64,000 nt of DNA, taken from the NCBI GenBank assembly GCA_000733355.1, contig JNVV01000028.1, forward strand, positions 362,239-426,238, in the 5' to 3' direction. Source of the DNA: Falciphora oryzae. Its lineage: Eukaryota > Ascomycota > Sordariomycetes > Magnaporthales > Magnaporthaceae. A program made the translations under genes and the position numbers. Below, in pieces: positions 25,858-60,995 of this stretch (position 1 is its first letter; each line of letters begins with the position of its first letter). The notes beneath the pieces were generated by a model, which made no database searches, had not been told where the DNA came from, and saw nothing but the letters and a program-made list of their open reading frames with translations.

Positions 25858-28361
25858 ATGTTTCCCCATGGCATAGCCCGCCTTCGCAGCGGCGCTGGCG
25901 CCAGCAGCCGCCATGTGCTGCTGTCGCGCTGCACCGCGTCGCCTCTCCCCCGGCGGTTCGTCCACCTGCCGTCCCGGACTCTCAGCTCGATATTGGCGGG
26001 CAGCAGCAGCCGCCCCGTCGCGACGANNNNNNNNNNNNNNNNNNNNNNNNNNNNNNNNNNNNNNNNNNNNNNNNNNNNNNNNNNNNNNNNNNNNNNNNNN
26101 NNNNNNNNNNNNNNNNNNNNNNNNNNNNNNNNNNNNNNNNNNNNNNNNNNNNNNNNNNNNNNNNNNNNNNNNNNNNNNNNNNNNNNNNNNNNNNNNNNNN
26201 NNNNNNNNNNNNNNNNNNNNNNNNNNNNNNNNNNNNNNNNNNNNNNNNNNNNNNNNNNNNNNNNNNNNNNNNNNNNNNNNNNNNNNNNNNNNNNNNNNNN
26301 NNNNNNNNNNNNNNNNNNNNNNNNNNNNNNNNNNNNNNNNNNNNNNNNNNNNNNNNNNNNNNNNNNNNNNNNNNNNNNNNNNNNNNNNNNNNNNNNNNNN
26401 NNNNNNNNNNNNNNNNNNNNNNNNNNNNNNNNNNNNNNNNNNNNNNNNNNNNNNGTCCTGGGCGCGGGCTACGCCGTCGACCGGCAGGTCTGGGCGTCGG
26501 GCGTCGCGCGCTCGCTGCGCACCTTCGCGACGGGGCTGCTGGTCGCGCTGGACTACAAGCTCAACTTCCGGGCCGAGCCGCTGCTGCCCTGGTCGAAAGA
26601 AGCCGCGCCGGTCGAGGACGTGCACCGGCGCAACGCGGAGCGCCTGTCGGGGCTGCTGCACGCCAACGGCGGGCTGTACCTCAAGATCGGCCAGGCCATC
26701 GCCATGCAGAGCGCGCTGCTGCCGGCCGAGTTCCAGAGGATGTTTGCGCGCATGTTTGACGACGCGCCGAGTGTCGGCTGGGCGGAGGTCGAGAAGGTTG
26801 TGCGCGAGGACTTTGGCGGCCGCTCGCCGCAGGAGGTGTTTGGCGTCAGCTTCGCCGGCGTCGAGGGCTTGGGCGTCATGGAGCGCGAGGCCCGGGCCAG
26901 CGCGAGTGTCGCGCAGGTCCACTGGGCGCGCTTGCCTGACGGGAGGGAGGTCGCGATCAAGATACAGAAGCCCGAGATTGCGAAGCAGATCGGGTGGGAT
27001 CTATGGTCGTTCAAGTGAGTATGAACCCGTCCCTGCTGGACTGGCGTAGGGCTATACTGTCTCTGGTCGCGGCCTGGTCAGGTTTATGCGAAAGAGATAG
27101 AAGTGCTAACCGCTGGCTGCATCTCACCTACAGAGTCGTCGCATGGGTGTATACCTGGTGGTTTGAACTGCCATTATACAGCATGGTGCCGTTCGTCACG
27201 GAGCGGCTGGAGCTCGAGACGGACTTTATCAACGAGGCTAAGAACTCGGAGACGATGCGGCGGCTGATCCAAGAAGAGCCGAGCTTGCGCGGGCGCATAT
27301 ACGTGCCTAAGGTTTACGAGGAGCTGAGCTCTAAACGCGTTATGACGACCGAATGGATCGAAGGTGTTCGTCTCTGGGACCGCGACTCCCTAACAAAACC
27401 CTGGTATGGTGGCAACGGCAAAGGCACCCCGGGCGTCAACGGCGCCCCGCTGACGCCCGCGCCCGACATGGCCGCCGTGCGGGCTGAGCTGCGACGCAAC
27501 CCGGACAGCAACCGACTCAAGCCGGAGCGCGAGGGCTGGAGGGGCCGACGCGGCACGGGCGGGCTCGGGCTGTCCAAGAAGGAGGTCATGGGCACCATCA
27601 TCGACCTCTTCTCGGCCCAGATCTTCAAGTTCGGCGTCGTACATTGCGATCCCCACCCAGGCAACATGTTTGTGCGACGCCTGCCCAACGGCAGGGCCGA
27701 GATCGTGCTTATCGACCACGGCCTTTACGTTTACATGTCGGAGACGTTCCGGCGCCAGTACGGCGAGTTCTGGCGCGCGCTTATGACGTTCGACAACGAT
27801 ACCATTACGCGCGTTTGCACCGAATGGGGCATAGGCGGCGCGGACATGTTTGCTAGCGCTACGCTTATGCGCCCGTACGAGGGAGGGGACGGCACGTACC
27901 GGCGCCAGCTGCTGCTGGGCGAGGGCACGGAGCACATGACGGAGCGCGAGCGGCGGGTCGAGACGCAGCGGCGCATGAAGCAGGCGGTGCGCGACATGCT
28001 GGCCGACGAGGAGCGGTGGCCAAAGGAGCTGGTTTTTATCGGACGGAACATGCGTATCGTCCAGGGCAACAACCAGCTCATGGGCTCGCCGGTAAACCGC
28101 GTCAAGGTCATGGGCCAGTGGGCCAGCCGCAGCCTGGTCGAGGACCGGGGCCGGCCGTGGCGCGAGAGGCTGGCGGCCGCGTGGAGGCACTACGTGGTGC
28201 TGCAGTCGGTCCTGGCCGTCTCGGACGTGCTCTTCTACTTCTTCAAGATCCGCCAACTGCTCGGCCTCGGCGGGGGCATGGAGGACGAGGTCGAGGCCAG
28301 GATGAAGAAGATGGCGAGCGAGTACGGCGTCGAGCTGCAGCATGACGTGTTCCAGGGGTGA
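25858..28361 (+). CDS. MCP2: Mitochondrial ABC1/ADCK atypical kinase, MCP2-like (interrupted by gap)
   Basis: ATG at 25858 in a CCGCCATG context. Exon 1 runs to 27014 and contains the 26027-26454 gap; exon 2 is 27134-28361 after a 119-nt intron. If the gap length is right and intron-free, the product is about 794 residues. The Arg-rich start is a plausible mitochondrial presequence. Family marks: YLKIGQAIAMQ (KxGQ motif), MFDDAP, ASASVAQVHWA (Ala-rich nucleotide loop), VAIKIQKP, FINEAKNSE, VVHCDPHPGNMF (catalytic loop) and LIDHGLYV (metal-binding DxG variant). The yeast relative Mcp2 acts in mitochondrial lipid homeostasis. An insert of about 50 residues (about 27430-27560) with Pro/Arg-rich sequence separates two conserved blocks. 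Confidence 0.88.
26027..26454. other. Assembly gap (428 N)
   Basis: Run of N inside exon 1 of the MCP2-like gene. The missing sequence should encode the transmembrane and pre-kinase region; an intron inside it cannot be excluded. Confidence 1.
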
Positions 28362-36343: not shown

Positions 36344-37558
36344 TTAGAAAACCTCCCCATCCGCGGCCTCCTCGATCGACCGCTTGCCGCCCTTCGGGGG
36401 CTTCGGGAGAGGGTAAGCGGGCTGCTTCGGCGGGGGCTTCGGAAGAGGGTACGCGGGCTGCTTCGGCTTCGGGAGAGGGTACGAATCTCTCACGGGCGGT
36501 GAGGGCTTGGAATCTTTCGGGGGCTTCGGAAGGGGGTACGAAGGCTTGCCAGGCTCACGCTTAGCAAGATCGAACGCCCCCTCGATCGACCGCTTGCCAC
36601 CCTTCGGGGGCTTCGGCAGAGGGTAAGCGGGCTGCTTCGGCGGAGGCTTCGGCAGAGGGTACGCGGGCTGCTTCGGCTTCGGAAGAGGGTACGAGTCTCT
36701 CACGGGTGGGGAGGGCTTAGAATCCTTCGGGGGCTTCGGAAGAGGGTACGACGGCTTGCCAGGCTCGCGTTTGGAAAGCTCCTCGATCGACCGCTTGCCG
36801 CCCTTCGGGGGCTTCGGAAGAGGGTAAGCGGGCTGCTTCGGCGGAGGCTTCGGCAGAGGGTACGCGGGCTGCTTCGGCTTCGGGAGAGGGTGCGAGTCTC
36901 TCACGGGCGGTGAGGGCTTGGAATCCTTCGGGGGCTTCGGAAGAGGGTACGAGGGCTTGCCAGGTTGGCGCTTGGCAAGATCGAACGCTCCCTCGTCCGC
37001 GGCCTCCTCGATCGACCGCTTACCGCCCTTCGGGGGCTTCGGCAGAGGGTAAGCGGGCTGCTTCGGCGGAGGCTTCGGCAGAGGGTACGCGGGCTGCTTC
37101 GGCTTCGGGAGAGGGTACGAATCTCTCACGGGCGGGGAGGGCTTGGAATCCTTCGGTGGCTTCGGAAGAGGGTACGACGGCTTGCCAGGCTCGCGCTTGG
37201 AAAGCTCGAAAGTCTCCTCGATCGACCGCTTGCCGCCCTTCGGGGGCTTCGGAAGAGGGTACGCAGGCTGCTTCGGCGGGGGCCTCGGAAGAGGGTACGC
37301 GGGCTGCTTCGGCTTCGGAAGAGGGTACGAATCTCTCACGGGTGGGGAGGGCTTAGAATCCTTCGGGGGCTTCGGAAGGGGGTACGAGGGCTTGCCAGGC
37401 TCGCGCTTGGCAAGATCAAATGCCCCCTCGTTGGCGAACCCGGGGGCCTGGGCGCCCAAGCCAGTGAGGTCAACGGACTGCGTGCCAAGCGGGAGCGCCA
37501 TGGCCGGGATGGCGCCAATGGCGATAAGGGCCATGAGGTGGGCGATGTTGAGCTGCAT
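36344..37558 (-). CDS. Secreted Kex2-type repeat precursor with five Pro-rich cationic units
   Basis: Single exon, 404 residues. The ATG at 37558 (CCAAAATG) opens a classical signal peptide, MQLNIAHLMALIAIGAIPAMA. A more upstream frame start at 37669 would bury the signal and is rejected. After a spacer ending DLAKR (52) come five 57-residue units at 53-109, 123-179, 198-254, 265-321 and 335-391. Each ends PPKGG followed by KR. Linkers are short and acidic (SIEETFELSKR, SIEEAADEGAFDLAKR, SIEELSKR, SIEGAFDLAKR; C-terminus SIEEAADGEVF). Each unit has four (S/A)YPLP(K/R)P motifs (one reads SHPLP in unit 3); unit 1 has 23 Pro, 9 Lys, 2 Arg and only 3 acidic residues. This is the layout of Kex2-processed repeat proteins. 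The mature role is unknown: free cationic peptide, cross-linked RiPP or wall protein. Confidence 0.85.
   Translation of the reverse strand: MQLNIAHLMALIAIGAIPAMALPLGTQSVDLTGLGAQAPGFANEGAFDLAKREPGKPSYPLPKPPKDSKPSPPVRDSYPLPKPKQPAYPLPRPPPKQPAYPLPKPPKGGKRSIEETFELSKREPGKPSYPLPKPPKDSKPSPPVRDSYPLPKPKQPAYPLPKPPPKQPAYPLPKPPKGGKRSIEEAADEGAFDLAKRQPGKPSYPLPKPPKDSKPSPPVRDSHPLPKPKQPAYPLPKPPPKQPAYPLPKPPKGGKRSIEELSKREPGKPSYPLPKPPKDSKPSPPVRDSYPLPKPKQPAYPLPKPPPKQPAYPLPKPPKGGKRSIEGAFDLAKREPGKPSYPLPKPPKDSKPSPPVRDSYPLPKPKQPAYPLPKPPPKQPAYPLPKPPKGGKRSIEEAADGEVF
36360..37400 (-). repeat. Tandem coding repeat (five units of about 195-220 bp)
   Basis: Five direct units encode the 57-residue peptide plus KR and a variable acidic linker. 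Core parts are nearly identical in DNA, while linkers differ in length (8-16 residues). Within each unit the YPLPKP-coding motif itself recurs four times. Confidence 0.9.
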
Positions 37559-38703: not shown

Positions 38704-39909
38704 TTACACCACATGTCCCTTGGTCTGCTTGACCTCGTCCACGCGAATGTCCCGCCAGGGCAGGGTGGCCAGCCAGGCAACGGCGAGCAGGCACACACTC
38801 GCGATGAGCATGTACTGCTGCGCGTCCGCGTACGCCCACGCGATCGCCATCCGCGTCGGGCCGCCCCACGGGTAGCCCAGCTGGAAATATATACTGCTGT
38901 GAATCTGGTCCGCGGACGATAACATCGACGAGGGCAGGCGTTTAGCTAGCGCGTTAGGGAATACCGTCGCCCAGATGGCCGTCGCCACTCTCGAGCCCAG
39001 CGCCGTCCCCAGGCCGCCGGCCAGTTCCAGGATCGCGATAATGGCCGCCACGTGCTGGTGGCCTAGCGGCGCCATTATAGCCATTTCGGCGGCGATCACG
39101 AAGGGGCCACCCGCTAATGCTATTAGTATTTGAGTCGCCACCATGCCGCCTATCGAATCGGCCGCCTCGGGCGTGCGAAACCGGATTATCAGCCCGACGC
39201 CGAATATGGATAGGGGCAGCACAAACCATAGCGCCACCTAGCGGAACCGACTTAACCCCGTATCGAGTAGCCGATCACCAGCGCAGACGGATAGGACCCG
39301 GTGCGGTAAATGTTAGTGATGTAGGTCGTGGTCGATACGCGCTGGTTAAACGCAGCTAGCAGCATTAACGTAAACCAGCTGTTCTAAACGGCTGAGGAGA
39401 AGAAGATAAAGAGGACGGTGACGCCCGCAAAAAAGACCGTCCGGTCCGTTAGGCGCCATCCCCGCGGCGAGCAGCAGTATGCCGAACAGGTCGACGTCGA
39501 TGCAGTAGGCGCAGACGTCGTCGAGGGTGGGCAGCCGCCGGCGGCTAGGCGGGATGAGGCCAAGACGGCGGGCGCGTCGCTGGTTCCAGAAAAAGAGGGC
39601 GGAAAGGGGCAGGACGATGGTGGCAGGATCGCGAAGGTTCCGACGCCCCAGCGCCAGCCCGCAGGGCCCGCTAGGATGGAGTCGGCCCAGGGTCCGCCGA
39701 GCCAGGTCGTCACGATGTATGGTGACGTGGCGAAGGAGAGCATCAGGCCACGGTTGCGCAGGGACGAGGTATCGGCAATAAAGACGGTCAGGCGGCGGCT
39801 GACGCCTGGGCACTGTAGGCGCGTTCTCTGGCTTGTCGGCAGGTCCGAGTTGACGGGGACAGGACAGCGAGTCAAGTAATTGTGGCGACTGGCCACTCTT
39901 GATGCCCAC
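38704..39909 (-). pseudogene. Siderophore-type MFS transporter pseudogene
   Basis: Transporter pieces lie in order but in different frames: ADTSSLRNRGLMLSFATSPY and IVTTWLGGPWADS (39896 side), FFWNQRRARRLGL, FNQRVSTTTYITNIYRTGSYPSALVIGY, then an open C-terminal part 38704-39237. That part reads ISIFGVGLIIRF-like, GLGTALGSRVATAIW, GYPWGGPTRMAIAWAYADAQ, LPWRDIRV and KQTKGHVV. The C-terminus matches the fungal siderophore-iron transporter family (ARN/SIT/Mir). Internal stops near 39240 and 39385, at least two frame changes and a missing TM1-3 block make it non-functional. Confidence 0.75.
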
Positions 39910-41809: not shown

Positions 41810-42059
41810 NNNNNNNNNNNNNNNNNNNNNNNNNNNNNNNNNNNNNNNNNNNNNNNNNNNNNNNNNNNNNNNNNNNNNNNNNNNNNNNNNNNNNNNNNNN
41901 NNNNNNNNNNNNNNNNNNNNNNNNNNNNNNNNNNNNNNNNNNNNNNNNNNNNNNNNNNNNNNNNNNNNNNNNNNNNNNNNNNNNNNNNNNNNNNNNNNNN
42001 NNNNNNNNNNNNNNNNNNNNNNNNNNNNNNNNNNNNNNNNNNNNNNNNNNNNNNNNNNN
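41810..42059. other. Assembly gap (250 N)
   Basis: Run of N between NLR debris and the LINE tail repeat. Confidence 1.
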
Positions 42060-54030: not shown

Positions 54031-55126
54031 CCTACTGTTGGTCCGCGCCTTAGGTGGTGTCCCGCTGCATGGAGCGGGAACCGGGTCAGTGCGCCGGTAG
54101 GGACCCACCACACGTGTTACCCGAGGCAACGGAGGACTGACCGCTGGCCGAGCCTCCACTGGCGGTCGACCCGCCGCCCGCCGCTCCTGCCGAAGCACGA
54201 GCTGCTGCAGTTGCCTTGCGGGTTTGGAGGGCCAGAAGACATGCTTGTTGGCGATGTAGCGGAGTTGCGAGCACACAGTTGGGAGGTGGTGTTGTATCTT
54301 GGCTGCTTCGCTTTGCCGTGTCGCTTACGGGATGGGGGAGGAGGAAAGCAAGCAAAAAAAAAAAAAAAAAAAATTGCTTGCGGAACAAAGCTGCGGTGTT
54401 TTTATATAAAGAGCAGTGAAAGGGGAAGCCCGTGACAGGTTGTTATGGTTGTGATACCCCAGCAGAGACTTGTTACACGCACGCATCGCCCGCAGCGGTT
54501 TCAACGCCTGTGCATCCTCCCAAGCCGAAGCCGAGTTGGGCGGTAACAAAGGGTGAGCCTATCGTCGGAGACCTGTGGCAGGGCAATTCGTCGGAATTAT
54601 TATCGTAGAGAAATCAGATTATGTTCTNNNNNNNNNNNNNNNNNNNNNNNNNNNNNNNNNNNNNNNNNNNNNNNNNNNNNNNNNNNNNNNNNNNNNNNNN
54701 NNNNNNNNNNNNNNNNNNNNNNNNNNNNNNNNNNNNNNNNNNNNNNNNNNNNNNNNNNNNNNNNNNNNNNNNNNNNNNNNNNNNNNNNNNNNNNNNNNNN
54801 NNNNNNNNNNNNNNNNNNNNNNNNNNNNNNNNNNNNNNNNNNNNNNNNNNNNNNNNNNNNNNNNNNNNNNNNNNNNNNNNNNNNNNNNNNNNNNNNNNNN
54901 NNNNNNNNNNNNNNNNNNNNNNNNNNNNNNNNNNNNNNNNNNNNNNACAGCAGGTCAACGAATGGTTTTCTTTTCCTTTCGGATTTGTTACATCACGCGC
55001 GCTGCGCGATTACCCTCTCTTTCGGTACAATCACTGTGAGCAAGCTCCCATCTTGCTTTGGATGGGCTCGCCCCATCTCCGGGTTTGTGATTGCTGCGAT
55101 GCCATTTCATGTCGCGTGGAGGCACG
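54031..55126. other. Spacer with poly-A run and gap
   Basis: GC-rich low-complexity frames, a 20-A run at 54354-54373 and the gap at 54628-54946. No supported gene. Confidence 0.5.
54628..54946. other. Assembly gap (319 N)
   Basis: Run of N about 180 bp downstream of the lipocalin-like gene. Confidence 1.
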
Positions 55127-57420: not shown

Positions 57421-58199
57421 AGGGTCATATTGGCGCGGGGGCCGACTCTCGAGGCGGTCGACACCAGTCTCGGCAGCCCAAACAAGCACTGGCAGGTCCA
57501 AACCGGCGTCCCACACCCTCGACCCGGGGCGCACCCACCGGGAGGCCCTAGCACACGCAGTCCCCGACAGCCCACTGGGATACGGGTACATAGAGGTGCC
57601 GAAGTGGCCCGCGCTGCGTCAAAGGTACCGGGGATATTCAGACTAGCACCTCTGGCCCGCTGCCGCGCAGGGCGCGGACACTGTGGACGCCTCGCTGCGG
57701 GCGGCGGCGCAGCACCAATCGGAGGCGGTTGGGTCGCGCAGGCCAGTACGATCAGAGCCAGCGGTCATCACCGCCGCTACCGCCGCATCTTTGAGTGCTT
57801 GCACTCCGGCTGAGCGCTGCACGGGACGTGAACGAGTGGTGCTACCTTGAAGCACACTCTGGATGGGTGTGAGCGTGGCGAACGATTGGCCAAGAGACTT
57901 TCCTCATTGTGTTTGGATGAATGTCTAACGATTGTGCTGGGTGGATAGACCTCCTTTTGTGGCCCCTGTGGTGGTGGGGTATAGAGAGGGGGAGCTGTTC
58001 CCTTTCCGGCGTTCTGGCGCGGGAAAGGGGCGGCGGGCAGGCTTCGAGGGCATTGTGATGCGTGCTTTGTGCCTCGGGCGCTCTCATTGCTCAAAAAAGC
58101 TAGGTAGTCAGGGAATGGATAGTCGTGGTCAGCCACGATGGCTTGGATATTGACGTCGCAGGACGCGCGTCCCGTGTAGGGGGCAGGGGCGGGCATAAG
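57421..58199. other. Spacer between two pseudogenes
   Basis: GC-rich, no coherent frame; the expected N-terminal halves of both flanking genes are missing here. Confidence 0.5.
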
Positions 58200-58877
58200 C
58201 GCAGCTGGGGCCGCGGCTACAACTCACGGGGGGCACCATCAAGATCGCATGGTCGGTCGGCTGGCACGACCCCAACATCTGCCTGTGGGACGCGGCGACG
58301 GGGCGCCAGCTCGCCACGACAGGTGCCGTCGCCCTCTTCCGCAAGGCGCGGTCGCAGCATGCCACCGTGGCATTTTCGCCCGTCGCCGCCGTCCTGCCCT
58401 CGGTTGCTGGCTCTCCCACCGCCGTCGCCGTCGCAGGTGCCAGTGGCAGTACCCGCGGCGGCAGCACCAGTACCCGCGGCGGCAGCACCAGTGCCAGCGC
58501 CCGCTTCGCCACGGGGTCTCTGGACGGGCGGGCCCGGATCTGGGACGTGGACCGGGCCGCGGGGACGGTGGCGCTGGTGCTATCGCTAGACCACCGCGGC
58601 CGTCACGGGTTCCCAGCGACGGTGCAGTCGGTGCATTTCTCGGTGGACGGCCGGCGGCTAGTGACGCACACCAGTGGCCTGTTGTCGGGTGGCGGAAGTA
58701 TCGTCACGGTCTGGGACCTCGGGGACCGGACGCGGATCCGCGTGCTCCAGGCAAGCGACGAGGACGATCACCGCTACTACTCGGGGCACATTTCTCGGCC
58801 CCAATACGGCCCCGCCGCCTTCTCCCCGGATGGAAACATAATCGTAGTCGCGACCAACCGCTGCGTCGCCGCGTACA

Positions 58878-58940
<63 letters not shown>

Positions 58941-60995
58941 AGGGCAAGGGCGAGGGTGAGGGCGAAGGCAGCACCCTAGAGATGCTCTACACCCTCACCC
59001 ACGTCCGCTTCAGCGGCCACAGCATTTACGACATCGCCATCTCCCCGGACAGCAAGCTGCTCGCGTACGCCGAGTCGTGGGGCAAAGTCCGGGTGTGGGA
59101 CCTGGAGGCCCGGACGACGCATGTCCTCAAAAGCGATATTGAGGCCGATGGCACGTCCCACGGCATCGCGTTCTCTCCCGACGTCAAGCGGGTGGCCCGG
59201 GGGGCTAAAAACGGCACCGTTCTGGAGCGGGACGTTGCCGCGGTAGGTACCGGCGGCGGCGTCGGCCCGCCAGTCGCGAGGTTCGAGGCACACAAGGGCA
59301 GTGTGTACGCCGCGGCGTGGTCGACGGGCGGCGCGCTGTTAGCCACCGCGTCCGAGGACAAGACGGTCCGCCTGTGGGACGCAGAGACCGGGCGGGCGGT
59401 CCGCGTCCTCAGGGGCCACCGTGGGAGTGTCCGGTCGCTGGCGTTCGTCCCCGGCGGGAATGAGATCGTGTCGTCCTCAGGAGACGGCACGATTCTCTTG
59501 CAGAAGCTTGGCCCCAGGGGCGGCGGCGGCGGTGACGACGACAACGACGGCTACAACCGCTACTACTCCTACATGGCCAGAAAGACCAAACCCAAGCCCG
59601 TCTCCATGCCCTCGCTAGCTGTGTTCCGGGACGGGAGGCACATGGCGTCGGGATCCGACGACGGCACCATCGCGCTGTGGGATGTCGGCGGCGCGGCAGA
59701 GCCCAGGCATATCCTGCAAGGACACACCGGTGACATCGAGTCGGTCGCCTTCTCGCCCGATGGCGCGTTGCTCGCTTCCGGCTCGTCTGACACAAAGATT
59801 CGGCTGTGGAGAGCGGATAGCGGTGCTGCAGTACGCACTATCGCCGTTGGCGACCCGATCCGTTCTCTGGCCTTCTCCCCGGATGGCCAGACGCTGGTTT
59901 CGGCACACGCGAACCACACCGCCCAGCTGTGGGATGTACAAGCGCTTCTCGCCGACTCTAACGTGGGAGACAGTCTCGATCGCAACCAAGCCAAGCCGCC
60001 GGTGAAATCCCTTACTTTCTCTCCGGACGGGAAGCGCCTCGCCGTCGTGTTGGGTGACAAGAGGGTAAGGCTACTTGACGTAAACACCGAGGCCGAACTG
60101 TGCACGCTCCAGGGTCACAGCGGGGGTGTGGATTCGGCGGTCTTCTCTGCGACTGGCGCACTGCTGGCGACCGCCTCTGACGACATGACGATTAAGCTTT
60201 GGGGCCTCCTGAACATGCGGGAAGCTGAAGTAGGAACGGCAGCAACAGCAGCAGAAGCAGAGCCACTGCGCACACTAGAAGGCCACACCAGCTGGGTTCG
60301 GGCCACCGCGTTCTCGCCCGACGGGCAGCGGCTGGCTTCGGGATCGGACGACAAGACAGTCCGCCTATGGGATGTCGACGCGGGCGAGCTGCTTCACACC
60401 CTCGAAGGCCACAGCGACTGGGTCGGCGCCTTAGCCTTCTCCGGCTCCGGTTCCGGTGCCCCGCTGCTGCTCGCCTCCGGTTCCGACGACGGCACGGTCC
60501 GGCCCTGGGACTGCAAGGACGGAGGGGAAGCGGTGCTAGTTCTCAAGGGACACGATGCCTGGGCAGGGCGGTCGGGTTCTCCGCTGATGGTAAGCGGCTA
60601 GCTTCGGCGTCTTCTGACCGGACAGTACGGGCTTGGGACGGGAAACAGGGGTTGTCTCACACATGTTCTCTGTAGATGCGCTGGTTCGGTCGATCTGGTT
60701 TTCTGGAGATGGTCAACGCATCGAGACAGATCGTGGGGCGTTTGCTCTTGATAGCGCGGAGAAAGGATCGCTACCAAACGGCAAGGGCATCGGTGGAGTC
60801 CAAACTAGCTCAGAGCCAACGAATCCTCCCCCTGTATTCGTCAAGGAGGAATGGACCTACCTCGGGGACAAGAGGGCGGTCTCACTGCCACCAGAGTACA
60901 GGGCTTCATGTTCGGCGCTTAGTGTTGACGGTATCTTTGCTCTGGGTTATGACTCCGGCACAGTCTCGTTTTTCGAGTTTGGCCAGGATTGTTAG
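58200..60995 (+). pseudogene. WD40 domain of a NACHT-WD40 NLR, 5' truncated and frameshifted
   Basis: One long open frame (to 60601) holds about ten WD40 units with SPDG and xLWD signatures (for example FSPDGALLASGSSDTKIRLW, FSPDGQRLASGSDDKTVRLW), starting near PNICLWDAATGRQLA. There is no ATG-initiated N-terminus and no NACHT domain. Two frame changes (about 60570 and 60640) precede the conserved NLR C-terminus: FSADGKRLASASSDRTVRAW, WFSGDGQRIETDRG, VKEEWTYLGDKRAVSLPPEYRA and ALGYDSGTVSFFEF. Fungal NLRs of this kind sense non-self via the WD40 array. An alanine run of about 27 residues (58880-58937) interrupts one blade. Confidence 0.82.
58878..58938 (+). repeat. GCC/GCT trinucleotide run (poly-Ala)
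   Basis: About 20 alanine codons in tandem (GCC then GCT blocks) within the WD40 frame, broken by one Val. A hot spot for length change. Confidence 0.85.

Follow-up and report, generated by a model that had tools for sequence, protein, structure and literature searches.

KEX2-processed repeat proteins (KEPs) were defined as a class in 2019 by Le Marquer (PMC6339444) and in 2020 by Umemura (PMC7329392). According to the text of the earlier study, a KEP gives at least four KR/RR fragments, at least three of which carry the pattern, with repeats making up at least 15% of the length (PMC6339444). The later rule, as worded there, asks for at least three tandem repeats of at least 8 residues between KR, KK, RK or RR, none longer than 100 residues (PMC7329392). 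In the main text of the 2020 survey, 1345 of 1461 strains have KEPs, 7878 in all, with a mean of 5.25 per ascomycete strain; 2560 of the 7878 lack a homologue (PMC7329392). As KEPs are so frequent in surveyed strains, a single stand-alone KEP gene is an ordinary find. Most of the many KEP peptides have no assigned function, and loci that share a leader offer a handle on how such peptides originate and change.

Here, we found a gene in the window (the whole 64-kb stretch of DNA analysed) that, judged by its sequence, belongs to this known class and agrees with every testable part of both definitions. Like other KEPs, the window protein combines a signal-like start (Kyte-Doolittle hydropathy averaged over 10 residues peaks at 2.80, from residue 8) with at least three repeats of 8-100 residues between KR sites, namely five units of 57 residues. 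When the wording of the 2019 rule was applied, it gave 11 fragments, five of them alike, with repeats covering 285 of 404 residues (71%). An in silico cut after every KR yields a 52-residue leader, five 57-residue units with a KR behind each, four linkers that measure 8-16 residues with their KR, and an 11-residue tail (Table 1). The first-pass annotation had described five 57-residue units bounded by KR with acidic linkers, and this was confirmed at the same positions, on the minus strand, which it had left unstated. Its composition for unit 1 (23 Pro, 11 basic and 3 acidic residues, four YPLP motifs) is likewise correct with the terminal KR excluded. To call the gene a new peptide system was too strong, since it fits the KEP class as described in the published texts (PMC7329392, PMC6339444), but the proposed precursor format was borne out.

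Table 1. Features of the KEP precursor gene and of the neighbouring transporter copy (positions in the window).
Feature	Position	Strand	Basis
KEP precursor gene, single open frame of 404 codons plus stop (ATG at 37558, stop 36344-36346)	36344..37558	-	ORF and translation
Signal peptide, residues 1-22	37493..37558	-	hydropathy; cleavage after A-M-A inferred
Propeptide, residues 23-52, ending AFDLAKR	37403..37492	-	KR cutting; leader similar in relatives
Unit 1, residues 53-109, then KR	37232..37402	-	KR cutting, unit comparison
Acidic linker 1, SIEETFELSKR, residues 112-122	37193..37225	-	KR cutting
Unit 2, residues 123-179, then KR	37022..37192	-	KR cutting, unit comparison
Acidic linker 2, SIEEAADEGAFDLAKR, residues 182-197	36968..37015	-	KR cutting
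Unit 3, residues 198-254, Q and H variant, then KR	36797..36967	-	KR cutting, unit comparison
Acidic linker 3, SIEELSKR, residues 257-264	36767..36790	-	KR cutting
Unit 4, residues 265-321, then KR	36596..36766	-	KR cutting, unit comparison
Acidic linker 4, SIEGAFDLAKR, residues 324-334	36557..36589	-	KR cutting
Unit 5, residues 335-391, then KR	36386..36556	-	KR cutting, unit comparison
Acidic C-terminal tail, SIEEAADGEVF, residues 394-404	36347..36379	-	KR cutting
Disrupted MFS-type transporter copy	38704..39817	-	similar gene in same place beside C46 relative

Unit 3 differs in that Q replaces E at its start and H replaces one Y, which leaves three YPLP motifs, and the N-terminal dipeptide is EP in four of the five units and QP in the other. 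Net charge is +8 to +9 in the units and -2 to -5 in the linkers and tail. With 59 Lys and 16 Arg in total, the protein contains 10 dibasic pairs, all of them KR and all at unit boundaries. When residues 23-404 were shuffled 20,000 times, KR occurred 2.45 times on average and at most 9 times. The freedom of one unit from internal dibasic pairs has a shuffle probability of 0.09 and, the five units not being independent, is a weak point alone. Divergence between units, pooled over 10 pairs, was pS 0.207 and pN 0.009 (pN/pS 0.046); the many synonymous and few amino-acid differences imply that the repeat DNA copies are not recent and that the amino acids were kept. The reading frame is real and the peptide is under constraint.

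How would such a chain be used? We propose that the precursor would enter the ER via its signal-like start, with signal peptide cleavage predicted at residue 22/23, that Kex2 would cut after each KR in the Golgi and that Kex1 would trim KR from the C-termini; a Ste13/DPP-type peptidase may also strip the N-terminal EP or QP dipeptide. The outcome would be some five peptides of 55-57 residues, linear and unmodified, with a net charge of about +8 and 40% Pro, and the acidic linkers would offset the cationic charge of the cores until cleavage. Given the placement of the sites, Kex2 cleavage very probably releases free peptides. As for the enzymes, the genome contains one P-domain (Kex2-type) locus, the only P_proprotein match (E 3.9e-27), and one DPPIV_N (Ste13-type) locus. 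The text of the 2019 study gives XA or XP after a Kex2 site as the Ste13 signature, and the EP and QP starts of the units fit its XP form (PMC6339444). For insect antimicrobial multipeptide precursors, a passage on ant hymenoptaecin proposes a dibasic cut, a carboxypeptidase step and the removal of E/D-A/P dipeptides (PMC3415428), a series that matches the scheme given here. The window gene predicts exact peptides (calculated linear monoisotopic masses for units 2, 4 and 5 are 6167.41 for the 57-mer and 5941.32 for the 55-mer without EP), which can be traced by mass spectrometry and synthesized for activity assays.

An uncut or loosely cut wall protein rich in Pro and Tyr, with an extensin-like use and Tyr serving oxidative cross-links, would suit the confinement of all 19 Tyr to YPLP and the disordered Pro-rich chain predicted by a single-sequence structure model (mean pLDDT 52.5, no folded domain predicted, a model that carries little weight). 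It would also suit the weak Pfam Extensin_1 match (E 0.0057) found in one of eight family members, although a Pro-rich composition alone predicts matches of this kind and the window protein itself has no Pfam match at E ≤ 1. A structural use appears improbable to us, because KR stands exactly at all boundaries, acidic linkers are present and the short acidic C-terminus is, by eye, unlike a GPI signal.

Searches of a protein database returned nothing at E ≤ 0.01 for the whole window protein among 7994 scored candidates, nothing at E ≤ 1 for the leader region among 69 candidates and nothing at E ≤ 1 for an alignment of the eight precursors among 7990 scored candidates. Since this database lacks the window's own protein, the source fungus is seemingly not covered, and an absence of homologues elsewhere does not follow. 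The other seven aligned precursors matched 16 Pfam families, each in one member and chance-like (best DUF2169, 5.5e-6), and Rfam gave no match within the window. No such Pro-rich fungal precursor was described in the literature titles and abstracts surveyed; KEP supplementary tables lie outside that scope, and the window gene may be identical to a KEP already in those lists. Elsewhere in the window, an 800-residue frame on the plus strand (58199-60601) has many WD40 repeat matches.

Is the leader of the window gene shared with other genes? The genome searched (50.2 Mb in 123 contigs, the window being on contig C28) is fungal by content, with UstYa genes, SUR7 and the fungal cellulose-binding domain. 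In seven further loci, some of them weakly supported, the leader is similar to that of the window gene and the cores are different and mostly cationic; this makes eight with the window gene. A whole-genome search with the window protein found C9 (E 2.4e-12), C1 (9.8e-4) and C46 (0.027). C18 was found through further searches and a leader pattern, C63 from the C18 query (E 0.0075), C42 from the C63 query (E 2.0e-18 and 1.1e-28 for two parts) and C61, a 62-residue precursor with one core, from the C1 query (E 0.66). A ninth locus, on C37 (E 0.656), is seemingly decayed, with a likely ATG and then a stop. Eight matches at E ≤ 1 were obtained with the window query, from which the gene itself, C9, C1 and C46 were accepted and C62 and C1:3507068 were left out. 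C16 and C37:76128 were rejected because KEP-like architecture was absent on inspection; C3 and C25 were also rejected on inspection. Because the genome was searched with single queries only, the relatives listed are a minimum.

Leader DNA resembled that of the window gene with z scores of 25.9 (C46), 25.4 (C9), 12.2 (C18), 8.9 (C61), 8.4 (C63), 4.2 (C1) and 4.0 (C42), from 100 mononucleotide shuffles each, a procedure that overstates the scores of signal peptides, which are alike by composition. C1 is supported at the protein level, C42 is tied in via C63, and the placement of C61 draws on its architecture as well as its leader DNA. C4, C1b and C22, which came up because of their acidic, repetitive style, had leader z scores of -0.4, -1.1 and 5.3; these three are not counted as relatives, though the score of C22 is no worse than those of C1 or C42. 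The leader DNA pattern occurred at 94 places with at most one mismatch (30 fetched loci were inspected) against 86 for the reversed control, i.e. at chance level overall; four of its six exact matches were in-frame KEP leaders, three of which had been used in designing it. Similarity of the 5' flanks was set aside as support, because pyrimidine-rich flanks may explain the scores (z against the window 20.6 for C9, 13.3 for C46, 10.9 for C1b, whose leader is dissimilar, 1.0 for C1 and -0.1 for C18). Runs of N occur in the window at 26027-26454, 41810-42059 and 54628-54946, and a 4.7-kb run lies beside the C9 relative (L055:752-5500).

Core sequences include YPLPKP repeats in the window protein, GLYPLAPPPGRTTKQ...KKKGS in C9, GYLGKKVPKGAPKPPLKNG in C1, QRSSNPPIHNPPVSN in C18, LLGPHKAVAPYINRQMKKQKH... 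in C63 and GRYYPGSNAKAPKGISKG in C61. Net charge is +8 to +10 in three long C9 cores (+2 and +4 in its two C-terminal fragments, -3 to -6 in its spacers), +10 to +14 in the cores of C63 (-7 to -15 in its spacers and tail), +10 and +12 in C42, +6 in C1 and +4 in C61. The C18 cores are weakly charged at +1 to +2, and the first two C46 cores carry 0 and +8, the C-terminal half of this protein being irregular. Spacers and tails are acidic across the family (-1 to -15). The pairing of cationic core and acidic spacer is frequent in the family, but C18 and one core of C46 depart from it.

In the window protein and in C18, whose last core extends to the protein end, every boundary is KR or RR, as are most of those in C9 and C46. 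The leader ends in a single Arg in C1, C63, C42 and C61, as do the spacers of C63 and C42, and Kex2 cutting after these single Arg residues is less certain; the cores of the same four loci close with KR or RR, except for the second one of C1, which runs to a stop. KK pairs lie inside cores, 11 in C9 and 14 in C63, and such internal dibasics make clean whole-core release less certain in the relatives. The KR or RR at the core ends of relatives, together with the P-domain and DPPIV_N matches, supports the original description of a secreted-looking, Kex2-type, cationic Pro-rich repeat precursor. That description was to fall if homologues kept the repeats and lost the KR sites, which the leader-sharing relatives do not, apart from the single-Arg leader ends of four of them; among the three look-alikes, only C1b has neither KR nor RR in its repeat units.

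These look-alikes have features of their own. The C4 precursor (L066:910-1818, minus strand) has eight cores of the form DCANNPYGCGL[VN]P, each containing a pair of Cys, very acidic STEE/SVEE spacers and leader DNA unlike that of the window gene. C1b (L073, ATG 2514, minus strand, contig C1) has cationic cores GLGRSAAQFGKGVARTALSGAKKLASKIPVR, acidic spacers and single-Arg boundaries; it contains no KR, and its one RR is in the leader. C22 (L074, ATG 835, plus strand) has cationic cores QLTGLSRLPNLKNPFKNLKNPFKKHGKR, with -14 to -24 in the later spacers and tail. Gly directly precedes KR or RR in the window units and in several cores of L011, L012, L023 and L027, and Gly before a dibasic pair is the arrangement of animal amidation sites. 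The amidating-enzyme domain PF03712 had no match in the genome and likewise none in control genomes, so absence is not implied.

The window gene and C46 lie in a segmental duplication, in which both have an MFS-type transporter gene ahead of the KEP gene and oriented like it. The window transporter has stops and frame breaks and misses about 150 bases relative to the C46 copy. At the DNA level, the transporters are identical at 82% of 750 and 88% of 368 aligned positions, the leaders at 82% of 91, and the stretches downstream of the KEP genes at 94% of 36. For the cores, looser settings gave DNA alignment only in pieces of 41-75 positions (75-83%), none continuous, with the same C46 core piece matched by several window repeats; at the protein level the cores are related (z 5.4 from 200 shuffles, for the stretch from the first core through the spacer to the second core). 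Judged by these alignments, the core has changed or been rearranged more than leader and flanks in this pair, which is useful for tracing peptide evolution. Window and C9 point in the same direction (27 of 52 leader residues identical, 13 of 45 in the core), whereas C63 and C42 show no faster cores (22 of 39 leader residues shared, against 22 of 44 in the first and 41 of 57 in the last core). The proposition that cores are always fastest to change is weakened by C63 and C42 and by the short window/C46 core matches, and for both reasons we give the reading of a family diversified chiefly in its cores (below) a slightly lower probability. Transporter and KEP gene as a functional pair were rejected: the arrangement was seen at two of the six regions compared (window and C46; part of the C9 region is masked, and C63, C42 and C61 were outside the flank comparison). 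As the C46 frame shows the window transporter to be disrupted, the pair reflects duplication and not a working cluster.

What are the peptides for? The best overall reading of the sequences is that they are probably processed peptides for biotic interaction. As the leading candidate for their use we tentatively suggest a secreted antagonistic (antimicrobial-type) peptide directed against other organisms, one of several cores on similar leaders. Six KEP knockouts in Coprinopsis were without phenotype in axenic culture, as reported in the text of that study, which fits a biotic use and proves nothing (PMC9769878). Against an antimicrobial set stand the C18 cores at +1 to +2, the one C46 core at 0 and the fact that core change is not uniform.

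The peptides might instead be self-signals, or host-directed effectors that alter a plant or animal partner rather than inhibit microbes. The KEP peptides characterised so far, as listed in the text consulted, are mating factors, virulence factors and mutualism modulators (PMC9769878), and XP/XA Ste13 signatures are described as usual in alpha-pheromone precursors (PMC6339444). However, 57 residues are far beyond the 9-24 residues of the pheromone class (PMC6339444), and several dissimilar, mostly cationic cores per genome exceed the needs of one self-signal, so that we regard a signal or effector role as rather unlikely. Returning to antagonistic peptides, we speculate, with considerable doubt, that the dispersed family uses one leader and acidic-spacer scaffold to deliver very different, mostly cationic, Pro-containing peptides. 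It would then be a convergent fungal counterpart of animal antimicrobial precursor families, serving competition with microbes or hosts and diversified chiefly in its cores.

A core that is cross-linked by UstYa-type enzymes into a RiPP (dikaritin) would be compatible with the KEP format and with three or four Tyr per unit, and the genome does contain UstYa genes (13 matches). None of the 13 lies on the 495-kb contig C28, which speaks against the Tyr-cross-linked RiPP suggested by the first-pass annotation, and the match nearest to any of 12 KEP-like loci is about 84 kb away, on C63. By comparison, UstYa-type genes accompany 22% of KEPs at an average distance of 3.09 genes, according to the survey text (PMC7329392). 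UstYa, tyrosinase or peptidase genes, for which the flanks were to be checked, do not appear among the Pfam families listed for 30 long window ORFs (for the WD40 protein, among the 25 of 57 matches listed). A dikaritin precursor is for these reasons highly improbable.

How does the locus compare with known systems? The precursors of ustiloxin- and phomopsin-type dikaritins share with the window protein Kex2-processed repeats with Tyr, but known ones have UstYa-type genes nearby, and the window gene has none on its contig. Dikaritin cores of this type are short. Ascomycete alpha-pheromone precursors, as described in the text of the 2019 study, have KR sites followed by XP dipeptides in common with the window protein, where EP and QP between them open all five units, and differ in their cores of 9-24 residues against 57 (PMC6339444).

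Closer in format are the hymenopteran antimicrobial precursors for apidaecin and ant hymenoptaecin, which in the published descriptions also consist of signal, pro-sequence and repeated units, with a dibasic cut and then an acidic dipeptide with Pro ahead of each unit (PMC11549390, PMC3415428). The apidaecin core is Pro-rich like that of the window protein, with 15-34 residues in the apidaecin type against 57 in the fungal units (PMC11549390). Type II Pro-rich antimicrobial peptides are described as conserving a C-terminal PRPPHPRL (PMC11549390). This motif is absent from the 404-residue window sequence; if antimicrobial, the window peptide would therefore probably use another route than the apidaecin type. 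Unlike in the hymenopteran precursors as described, the SIEE...KR linkers would leave as separate fragments. The resemblance is one of format, not of descent.

Among KEPs, the core of 57 residues is far above the commonest Dikarya class of 9-24 residues given in the 2019 text (PMC6339444), and 23 Pro and a net charge of +8 per unit set the window protein apart. Pro itself is present in SPPHKT, one conserved Pezizomycotina KEP motif mentioned there (PMC6339444). KEP type P-4 (#108) of Rhizophagus, Diversispora and Trichomonascus has an Apidaecin profile match in Table 2 of the 2020 survey (PMC7329392), whereas the window protein matches no Pfam profile at E ≤ 1, a comparison by description only. 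The window leader also differs from the KEPs described in resembling the leaders of several loci with unlike cores; in the KEP surveys, supplementary tables being outside the scope, we found no description of dispersed loci whose leaders are alike while their mostly cationic cores are not. Thus, the single gene is an ordinary KEP, and the leader-sharing family is the more interesting and newer part.
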